Program-made: the position numbers and the translations under genes
IMG/VR virus record: IMGVR_UViG_3300026078_000460
Location: 1-23,606 of that record
Strand: one strand, 5' to 3'
DNA from: a virus
Length of the DNA stretch: 23,606 nucleotides
Shown: piece by piece, positions 6,775-8,663 of the stretch
Layout of the letters: the number at the start of each line of letters is the position of its first letter
Numbering within the stretch: position 1 is the first letter of the stretch
Notes under the pieces: model-generated
What the model was told of the DNA's origin: nothing
The model's database searches: none
The model's input: the letters and a program-made list of their open reading frames with translations, nothing else

Positions 6775-7740
6775 TCAGTCCTCGGTCCAGTCGGGGTTCT
6801 TCAGCGACTGCCACAGCGACCGGAACCAGCCGGATGTCTTCTCCTCGGCGTCCTCGGCGGGGACGCCGGTACCGGGTCGGGGCGTCCGAACGGTGCGTCC
6901 CGCGTCCGCGCGGACGCCGGGGGCTTTTGGGGCCTGTGCACCACCTCCCGCCACGGCCTGTTCGACCTTCGGCAGGTTCTGGGTGTCGCTGACGGTGGAC
7001 AGCGCCGACGCCACCAGGTCGTCGTTGGACTGTTTCCGAGCCAGAACGTCGGAGGTGCACGGCGCCATGCTCAGCTTGTTCATGGCACGGTCGGCGTGGG
7101 CAGCGGCCCGTGCTCGGTACGTCTCCGCCGTCACCTGGTCCTGGGCGCGCTGCCGCTCCGTCCACTCCTGGCGTTCTTGCGAGGTGAACCCGTCGTCCGA
7201 CTGGTCGGCCAGGGTCGGTCCTCCCCCGTACGTCACACCCATCGTCATGTCCTTGGCCTTCGCCCGGTTGACGGTGAATTCGTAGTGTTTCGGGGTGACC
7301 TGGTACTCGGGGCCGACATGCTCGAAGGTCAGCCAGACGCCGGGGGCGTAGCCCTTCAGCGGGACATTGCGGCCGGGCAGTGTCACCAGCAGGGTGCCGT
7401 TCGGCAGCACCTTGGCCACCGCATAGTCGAACTTGTCCGGCTCGGGGAACCCATGGGTCCAGACCACCGTGTGATGCGGTCGGACCTGAATCTGTTCGCC
7501 GGTAGAGTCCTCGACCGTAGGCCGCCCGTCCTCGACTGCCGCGACCCAGCCGTACGGGTCGACGTCGGGCGCCTCGGGGGTCTGCGGCTCACCGTCCGGG
7601 CCGTTCGTGCCCTCGGGGTCGGCGTGAGACCACTCCTGCGGGACCGGGTGAGGAGCCGCCCACAGCTCGGTGTCCGGGTCGTCCTTGGCTGACCGAATCA
7701 GCCGTTCGGCCTGTTCCTGCAACTCCTGTGCCGTGGTCAT
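6775..7740 (-). CDS. Hypothetical protein, 321 aa
   Basis: I do not recognise this protein. Residues 1-80 are acidic and Pro-rich (EWSHADPEGTNGPDGEPQTP); about 80-175 form a beta-rich domain (HHTVVWTHGF, LLVTLPGRNVPLKGY, VWLTFEHVG); about 185-240 are charged helix rich in Gln and Arg; the C-terminus is low complexity, ending in WFRSLWQSLKNPDWTED. No catalytic motif or membrane segment is visible. The ATG follows GAGAGGC by about 7 nt. It is the first gene after the tRNA-like element and separated from the next gene by 115 bp. Confidence 0.75.
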   Translation of the reverse strand: MTTAQELQEQAERLIRSAKDDPDTELWAAPHPVPQEWSHADPEGTNGPDGEPQTPEAPDVDPYGWVAAVEDGRPTVEDSTGEQIQVRPHHTVVWTHGFPEPDKFDYAVAKVLPNGTLLVTLPGRNVPLKGYAPGVWLTFEHVGPEYQVTPKHYEFTVNRAKAKDMTMGVTYGGGPTLADQSDDGFTSQERQEWTERQRAQDQVTAETYRARAAAHADRAMNKLSMAPCTSDVLARKQSNDDLVASALSTVSDTQNLPKVEQAVAGGGAQAPKAPGVRADAGRTVRTPRPGTGVPAEDAEEKTSGWFRSLWQSLKNPDWTED

Positions 7741-7784
7741 ATCGATGCCTCTCGTTGTTGTATGGTGCTTTTTTGCATATTGGG

Positions 7785-7920
7785 TGGACCGGGCAGGACT
7801 CGAACCTGCGAGCGGGATATCTCCCTTTTTGCTACCAAGAATGAAGGGGAATCGAACCCCACACCCCGTTCCGAGGGGACGCCCGACTCGAACGGGCTTG
7901 ACTCATCCGATTTCCGGTCC
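7785..7920 (-). ncRNA. Composite tRNA-like element with three T-arm hairpins
   Basis: Three hairpins match the tRNA T-arm (TTCRANY loop of 7 nt): 7881-7897 (5-bp stem), 7846-7860 (4-bp GGGG/CCCC stem) and 7793-7809 (5-bp stem). The last abuts CCGGTCC plus a discriminator A (7785-7792), exactly as at a tRNA 3' end, and the complement GGACCGG lies at 7914-7920, closing a perfect 7-bp acceptor-like stem around the whole element. The D and anticodon arms of a normal tRNA are not recognisable for this outer stem, and 136 nt is too long. It sits between a terminator hairpin and the next gene start. It may be a novel structured RNA, a tRNA split by another, or decayed tRNA genes. Confidence 0.55.
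7838..7908 (-). tRNA. Inner 71-nt cloverleaf, possible atypical tRNA
   Basis: Inside the composite element a 71-nt stretch folds into four arms: acceptor GGATGAG with TTCATTC (7 pairs, two of them G-U), a first arm of 5 bp, a second arm CCCC/GGGG with loop TCGGAAC, and a T-arm with loop TTCGATT. A loop position 33 of C, a first arm without the GG of a D-loop, and a 4-bp T-stem all depart from normal tRNAs, so a working tRNA is doubtful. If the second arm is an anticodon arm the anticodon would read GGA. Confidence 0.3.
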
Positions 7921-7924
7921 ATGT

Positions 7925-7960
7925 GCCGACCCTGCCGGGCGCCGTGACGGCAGGGTCGGC
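7925..7960 (-). terminator. 13-bp hairpin terminator
   Basis: Perfect stem GCCGACCCTGCCG (7925-7937) with 7948-7960 around a 10-nt loop, 11 bp after the stop of the zinc-binding gene and 4 bp before the tRNA-like element. No U-tract follows. It separates the two units and could also define the 5' side of the structured RNA. Confidence 0.7.
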
Positions 7961-7971
7961 GGTCTGTGCGG

Positions 7972-8592
7972 TCAGCCCCAGGGGAGGCCGCGCTTGGCAG
8001 CGCACTTGGGGCCGTAACCGGCGTCGATGCTGCGCTCGTCGGTCAGGTCGATCGAGCAGAAGATGCAGTTGCCGTAGAGCTTGCCCCATTCCCGAGCCTG
8101 CTCGGCGGTCAGCTCCATGGCCGGGGTGAGCTTGTGGACCAGACCCGACTCGTACTGCCAGTGCGCACCGTCCCAGCGCTTGGCGTACAGGTGGCCGCTG
8201 CCGTGCTTGGCCTGCTGCACCTTCACGTAGTCGTCACCCAGCTTGTAGAAGCCGTCCGTGACCTTGGGCGAAGCCTGCGGCCGAGCCGCCGGGCGGGCCC
8301 GGTACGGCAGCTCCTTCAAGGCGTCGATCAGCTGGCTGCACTCCTTCGCGGCAACCGGACCGCCGGTGGTCAGGCGGGCCACGGCCTGCAACAAGTGGTC
8401 GGGAAGCAGTTCGTACTGGCGGCTCTGCACCAGCTTTCCCGCCCACTCCCGGGCCTTCTCGCTGGCCCCGGGCTGGTGCTGACGCCGGGCCGGGGTCTCG
8501 CACCTGCGGACGACCTCGGTCGCGATCTTGCGTGCGTCGGTGGTGTTCAGGGCGAACATCGGGTGCATGTCGCGGATTTCGAGCTTCGGCAT
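7972..8592 (-). CDS. DUF6011-like zinc-binding protein
   Basis: The 206-aa product ends in a compact Cys cluster: C176 and C179 (NCIFC), LTDERSIDAGYGPKC with C197, and a terminal GLPWG. This resembles the DUF6011 domain often found at the C-terminus of actinophage and actinobacterial proteins, which probably binds zinc. The N-terminal 100 residues are helical and basic; residues 115-150 are beta-rich (FYKLGDDYVKVQQ). The ATG at 8592 has GAGGAA just upstream. It is driven by the best promoter in the window (8635-8663) and followed by a terminator, so it is probably a monocistronic, strongly expressed gene. Function unknown. Confidence 0.8.
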   Translation of the reverse strand: MPKLEIRDMHPMFALNTTDARKIATEVVRRCETPARRQHQPGASEKAREWAGKLVQSRQYELLPDHLLQAVARLTTGGPVAAKECSQLIDALKELPYRARPAARPQASPKVTDGFYKLGDDYVKVQQAKHGSGHLYAKRWDGAHWQYESGLVHKLTPAMELTAEQAREWGKLYGNCIFCSIDLTDERSIDAGYGPKCAAKRGLPWG

Positions 8593-8634: not shown

Positions 8635-8663
8635 ATACTAGCATAGGATTGTCCCAGTGTCAA
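8635..8663 (-). promoter_or_regulatory. Consensus promoter for the DUF6011-like gene
   Basis: Minus strand: -35 TTGACA (8658-8663), a 17-bp spacer and -10 TAGTAT (8635-8640), 42 bp upstream of the ATG. The -35 is a perfect sigma-70-type hexamer with ideal spacing. A copy of the dispersed 13-bp motif lies 15 bp upstream of the -35. Confidence 0.75.

Follow-up and report, generated by a model that had tools for sequence, protein, structure and literature searches.

We report here that the genome of a soil phage contains, between two genes, a 136-nt element (7920 to 7785, (-) strand) whose two ends have the acceptor stem and T-arm of a tRNA and whose interior holds two further hairpins with T-arm-like loops. 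The element lies within a 23,606-nt stretch of DNA, which we analysed as a whole and refer to as the window, and the nearest cultured relatives of the phage are Streptomyces phages. It appears to be neither a tRNA nor a tmRNA nor a Y RNA and, judged from its sequence, it probably cannot decode. The explanation we prefer, to which we give about an even chance, is that the element encodes a structured phage RNA with tRNA-like ends, probably non-decoding, which is transcribed with the adjacent DUF6011 gene, processed, and serves as a trans-acting mimic of tRNA. The open-licence literature searched contained no description of this architecture, nor anything relevant on permuted, nested or two-T-arm phage tRNAs, which is weak evidence of absence.

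Architecture of the element

The initial annotation of this region drew attention to three TTCRANY hairpins within 136 nt of one strand, and these are present at 7897-7881, 7860-7846 and 7809-7793 (-), as is the perfect 7-bp acceptor stem GGACCGG/CCGGTCC that it had placed at the outer ends, together with a canonical T-arm and a discriminator A. The 5′ strand of the acceptor (7914-7920) pairs with its 3′ strand (7786-7792) with a probability of ~1 both in the window and in the relative L005 (see below), and the adjoining outer T-arm, GCAGG-TTCGAGT-CCTGC (7793-7809), is invariant; with probabilities >0.9 in both sequences, these two are the sole thermodynamically firm parts of the element. The last nucleotide is a discriminator-like A (7785), which is also A in L005 and in a third relative, L027, and it is not followed by an encoded CCA.

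Inward from the 5′ acceptor strand the element has no D-stem, but we infer a D-loop-like role for the stemless segment AAATCGGAT (7905-7913), which is invariant in L005 and L007. The earlier statement that there is no D-loop GG has to be amended, as this segment, directly after the acceptor strand, contains a GG that is kept in L005, and GG also occurs in TTGGTAGC and in the loop of hairpin 2. Next come GAGTCAA (7898-7904), the 5′ strand of a closing helix; hairpin 1, GCCCG-TTCGAGT-CGGGC (7881-7897), with a T-loop-like loop; hairpin 2, CCCC-TCGGAAC-GGGG (7864-7878), which sits between T-loop hairpins 1 and 3 and has an invariant stem and, in L005, a loop 1 nt shorter; and hairpin 3, the second T-arm, GGGG-TTCGATT-CCCC (7846-7860), invariant in L005 and L007. 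A variable linker, TTGGTAGCAAAAA (7826-7838), is represented in L005 by CGGCACAAAAA, in which GGTA is lost and the A-run retained, and hairpin 4, GGGA-GATA-TCCC (7814-7825; GGGC-GGCG-GCCC in L005), precedes the last T-arm.

Could three T-arm hairpins have come together by chance? A scan of both strands of the entire window found just 2 further such hairpins in 23.6 kb, from which the chance expectation for 136 nt is ~0.006, and we therefore consider the three to be real. The folding energy of the element has a moderate advantage over shuffled sequences (z -1.8), and the pairing probabilities of the window element and its relative show hairpins 1-3 competing with alternative pairings. Hairpin 1 can be read in two ways, as its 7-nt loop doubles as an anticodon loop, with CGA (Ser) in the window and CAA (Leu) in L005; because the loops fit both readings, T-arm versus anticodon arm is undecidable from sequence alone.

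The fold of the inner part is likewise ambiguous. In one option, that of RNAalifold, the closing helix is GMGT with GCKC (GAGT/GCTC in the window, the latter at 7810-7813), adjoining the outer T-arm. In the other, GMGTCAA pairs with TTSATKY (TTCATTC in the window, 7839-7845) to enclose hairpins 1-3 within 66 nt, with the window forming 6/7 pairs and the relative all 7. The latter stem overlaps GGATGAG/TTCATTC, the stem of the minimum free energy structure of the window, which we took to be that of the 71-nt inner cloverleaf proposed at the outset, as no pairs had been given for it; so defined, the cloverleaf stem is not conserved, with just 4/7 of its pairs retained in L005.

Conservation and covariation in related phages

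Relatives were located by scans with the exonuclease and primase proteins. The exonuclease search of bacterial genomes found no relatives, and a DNA pattern search of bacterial genomes gave one match, in a MAG, that is unrelated. The element, for which we built covariance model R1, lies between the same two genes in L005 (IMG/VR 3300005535_000057) and L007/G001 (L007 being IMG/VR 3300020069_000003), with 86% identity to the window; since the L005 and L007 elements are identical, they provide effectively one comparison.

Relative to the window, the L005 element has 19 substitutions and 3 gaps. Writing out the helices from the window sequence defined 29 core pairs, that is, 58 columns in six helices, four of which (acceptor, hairpin 3, hairpin 4 and last T-arm) appear in the predicted fold of the window. 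The paired columns changed less than the unpaired ones (4/58 vs 15/75 ungapped columns), and the four substitutions in core pairs amount to two complete compensations, leaving 0/29 pairs broken: acceptor pair 6 is G-C in the window and A-U in L005, where the 3′ strand is CTGGTCC, and the closing pair of hairpin 4 is A-U in the window and C-G in L005. In Monte Carlo trials with 19 random changes, no break combined with two compensations occurred in 3/100,000 (~3e-5). A third change from A-U to C-G, which involves A18 of the GAGTCAA strand (column 18), is compensated under either closing helix, and the loop of hairpin 1, TTCAAAC in L005, has changed solely at the degenerate positions of TTCRANY. 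With just two distinct full-length sequences, the covariation comprises two or three pairs, and none of the covarying pairs is in hairpins 1-3. That the helices are maintained by paired mutations in relatives nevertheless makes a working RNA more probable than debris. The search for covarying pairs in related phages that had been suggested with the initial annotation did find compensations, with no core pair broken, which is the opposite of scattered T-arm remnants devoid of covariation, albeit in what is effectively a single comparison.

A coding role was considered and rejected: a small ORF spanning the element is interrupted in L005 and, as the reading frame is broken there, the element is not coding. 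In a fourth relative, L006/G002, the gene order is the same and the RNA is absent, from which we conclude that the element is dispensable.

The T-arm/acceptor end of a tRNA gene is a frequent integration point for temperate phages, which raises the question of whether the element acts at the DNA level, as an attachment site consisting of a tRNA 3′ end that the phage carries. We regard this as extremely improbable, because it leaves both the paired 5′ strand and the compensatory changes unexplained and because a PHROGs scan of ten window proteins revealed no integrase.

Possible origins of the element

A more serious alternative is that the element is a drifting scar, in which two tRNA genes were fused or nested by deletion or insertion and the remainder is no longer selected. 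Genes with a tRNA inside a tRNA do exist in other viral contigs (L119 and L091, below), GGTA-like remnants of a D-loop precede the last T-arm in the window, and the succession of T-arm, linker, second T-arm and 3′ acceptor strand is the expected residue of a fusion of neighbouring tRNA genes. A sequence released from selection would not, however, be expected to preserve its core pairs by compensatory change, to vary less in its paired columns or to keep a 7-bp acceptor stem perfect in both sequences, and for these reasons we consider the scar unlikely, though still to be reckoned with. Both ideas had been raised in the initial annotation. On the sequences compared, its structured RNA that mimics tRNA ends is better supported than its inserted-gene scar, in that core helices vary by compensatory pairs, with the reservation already made that there is one comparison. 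The insertion of one tRNA gene into another survives as a plausible origin, given its occurrence in other viral contigs, although no intact outer or inner tRNA can be recovered from the element. Plausibly, then, the element originated from fused or nested tRNA genes.

Does the element still encode a functional tRNA, or two, with one split by the other and made whole when the inner part is cut out? Such layouts occur in other contigs, and hairpin 1 could be the anticodon arm (CGA/CAA), and hairpin 2 the variable arm, of a type II tRNA. However, a matching inner acceptor would lack its 5′ strand, and in the window A36 is followed by G37, which is unusual for a Ser tRNA. Furthermore, no inner tRNA was called, and restoration of an outer tRNA by removal was at shuffled background: trial removals gave differing ARAGORN identities in the two relatives, Arg(tct) vs Ile(gat), and the 28 removal calls are no excess over a median near 40 for shuffled interiors, although the scan is not discriminating for a hidden outer tRNA because shuffled interiors reach 814 calls. 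Overall, we find an interrupted functional tRNA highly improbable.

Comparison with known RNA classes

As the initial annotation had stated, no normal tRNA is present. ARAGORN at default settings called 0 tRNA genes in the window and, with -m, no tmRNA; Rfam gave no match over the window at E 1, and its tRNA model (RF00005) none in the window record. The element has three features of RF00005, the 7-bp acceptor, the TTCRANY T-arm and the discriminator, and lacks a cloverleaf score above the gathering cut-off or an ARAGORN call. A tRNA-Ser(cga) and a tRNA-Arg(tct) in the element were called by ARAGORN solely at the relaxed setting -ps50 and were rejected, as dozens are likewise called in ordinary phage DNA and such calls are not evidence. 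An Rfam search of 7770-7930 returned fragments alone, all far below gathering scores: beta-tmRNA (15.4 bits), permuted tmRNA (13.4), Tymovirus tRNA-like structure (10.9) and tmRNA (9.4).

Several known RNAs resemble the element in part. The tRNA-like domain of tmRNA (RF00023, RF01850) also has an acceptor and a T-arm, its D-loop likewise lacks a clear stem, and in tmRNA too the central part is replaced by other helices; in contrast, the element has no tag reading frame or tmRNA call, and its T-arm fragments score 9.4 and 15.4 bits vs gathering scores of 47 and 84. YrlA (RF02553), a Y RNA bound by Ro60/Rsr, is likewise a tRNA mimic and has no anticodon arm. The element, however, has no Ro-binding stem and ends in an open acceptor, whereas in YrlA the mimic is permuted and its acceptor is closed into a hairpin; the element falls outside YrlA because its best match is limited to one T-arm (11.3 bits vs 69). 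The Tymovirus-type structure (RF00233) is a viral RNA that mimics the acceptor/T end of tRNA, but the element scores 10.9 bits vs 40 against it, lacks a pseudoknotted acceptor and is from a DNA phage, not a plant RNA virus. Finally, the sequence of the outer T-arm and 3′ acceptor strand is shared with tRNA-Phe of Streptomyces phage Omar and tRNA-Asn of Curtobacterium phage Sunfish; in those genes either the cloverleaf is complete or an intron is annotated, and the element has neither. The element does belong to a grouping that we propose, multi-T-arm tRNA-like RNAs, in which one acceptor stem surrounds two or more T-arms.

Genomic context and proposed function

Upstream of the element is a gene for a 206-aa DUF6011 protein (7972-8592, (-) strand; Pfam PF19474), a homologue of which also lies upstream of the RNA in L005, L007 and L027. 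Between them is a long gene-end hairpin (7925-7960, (-) strand), identified as a self-complementary match, and L005 has a hairpin of different sequence. A consensus scan points to a candidate promoter, a strong sigma-70-like match, before the DUF6011 gene, TTGACA-17-TAGTAT with TG before the -10 (8635-8663, (-) strand). The downstream gene (6775-7740, (-) strand) encodes a 321-aa protein with homologues downstream in L005 and L007 and no match to a Pfam or PHROG family; the 3′ end of the RNA is 44 nt before its start codon at 7740.

That 44-nt distance, and a position kept in L005, L007 and L027, would suit a cis-acting leader that regulates translation of the 321-aa gene, or the end of its transcript, by binding a protein that recognises tRNA. 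Cells are known to have mRNA leaders of this tRNA-mimicking kind, for example that of thrS in E. coli. We nevertheless think a leader role distinctly unlikely, since a leader does not need a precise tRNA-like acceptor end with its A, and since L006, without the RNA, retains the downstream homologue.

Under the preferred explanation, a trans-acting tRNA mimic, the RNA would be transcribed together with the DUF6011 gene, likely from the TTGACA-17-TAGTAT site (8663-8635). The host could excise it with RNase P and then tRNase Z, enzymes whose recognition site on tRNA precursors is the acceptor/T-arm, and CCA addition would follow. The product might then occupy or recruit proteins that recognise the tRNA elbow or acceptor.

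tRNA-like RNAs and Y RNAs in related phages

In L027, the same place between genes is taken by a 69-nt tRNA-like RNA that ends in A and has a 6-bp acceptor, a short GG-bearing D-arm, a T-arm and, at the position of the anticodon loop, a 12-nt hairpin loop. The sister Hiyaavirus phages of Streptomyces, Keanu, Galactica, Hiyaa and Spocter, and contig L032 share an unannotated 77-nt cloverleaf upstream of a recombinase gene (L014 7588-7668 in Keanu, L015 7567-7647, L016 7655-7735, L017 7762-7842 and L032 4375-4455). It has an NCCA end and an “anticodon” hairpin of 7 bp with a 10-nt loop, and among the five sequences 6/25 pairs are compensated and 0 broken. In G001 (47350-47410; L020 1598-1658, locus L063) we observed a tRNA that lacks the whole anticodon arm and has a D-arm, T-arm, acceptor and encoded CCA (Rfam tRNA, 46.2 bits). 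From these three cases we conclude that tRNA-like RNAs without the usual anticodon loop recur in this phage group. Separately, G002, the relative without the window element, has a 99-nt tRNA-like gene whose anticodon arm is expanded (37926-38024, locus L064; Rfam tRNA, 39.9 bits).

G001, G002, G005 and contig L009 also encode YrlA-like Y RNAs (28.9 to 47.5 bits vs a family cut-off of 69), permuted mimics of tRNA in which the Ro-binding stem is human-Y-like and which ARAGORN misses. Their arrays are at L020 1260-1600 (G001 ~47.0-47.35 kb), L009 5950-6445 and L006 16100-16700, and those of L020/G001 and L009 are immediately followed by a phage Ro60 gene, whose product has TROVE and Ro60 vWA (vWA_Ro60) domains. 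Permuted tRNA genes were considered for these units and rejected, as the units match YrlA Y RNAs beside a Ro60 gene instead. The window stops at the primase gene, just short of the expected Y RNA/Ro60 locus, and a link between the element and Ro60 is only a suggestion.

Other viral RNAs with one acceptor around several T-arms

At least 120 viral contigs match a pattern of two T-arms 35-65 nt apart. Among the matches listed, 28 of 117 non-redundant places have a 7-bp outer acceptor enclosing the first T-arm, an enrichment over controls in which acceptor strands were exchanged between places (500 swaps), which gave 5.1 on average and never more than 13. Some contain a tRNA gene within a tRNA gene, such as L119 (4972-5121) with a complete tRNA-Phe (GAA) and L091 (4994-5145) with a complete tRNA-Ile (GAT), each in the anticodon loop of the other gene. 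Others have no complete inner tRNA, and their layout resembles that of the window element.

The Streptococcus suis phages Javan577, Javan584 and phi5218 encode an unannotated 113-nt tRNA-like RNA with two T-arms in one acceptor (L204 1501-1631, Javan577; L203 1501-1616, phi5218; L103 2569-2681). The 3′ part, which runs from first T-arm to acceptor, hardly varies; the anticodon arm has diverged and the flanks are not alignable. Like the element, it has an acceptor around a T-arm, a GG-bearing linker hairpin, a second T-arm and the 3′ acceptor strand; unlike the element, it is 113 nt long with two T-arms and has a D-arm, and we claim no sequence homology between the two, or between any multi-T-arm lineages.

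It is possible, though we put it forward tentatively and with some doubt, that phages of unrelated hosts share an undescribed kind of RNA, in which a tRNA-like acceptor and T-arm surround one or two more T-arms, and that these RNAs are probably non-decoding, under selection, and mimics that work against host tRNA-handling proteins or in their favour, the window element being a three-T-loop example. Phage tRNA genes are usually interpreted as codon supplements. Conserved RNAs with the elbow and acceptor of a tRNA and without a usable anticodon would point to another use, in which they occupy, recruit or mislead the numerous enzymes for which the top of a tRNA is the recognition site. Because ARAGORN and the Rfam tRNA model miss such RNAs, the class would be invisible in current annotation. 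Because comparable RNAs occur in cultured phages, namely the Hiyaavirus group and those of S. suis, this question is open to direct testing.

The covariance model of the window element gave 46.7 bits in contig L126, where three T-loops occur in the same order (2365-2492), a score that is inflated because the contigs were preselected for two close T-arms. Just upstream of that three-T-loop element, L126 also has a tRNA-like gene (2220-2360) with an insert of ~80 nt in its anticodon loop.
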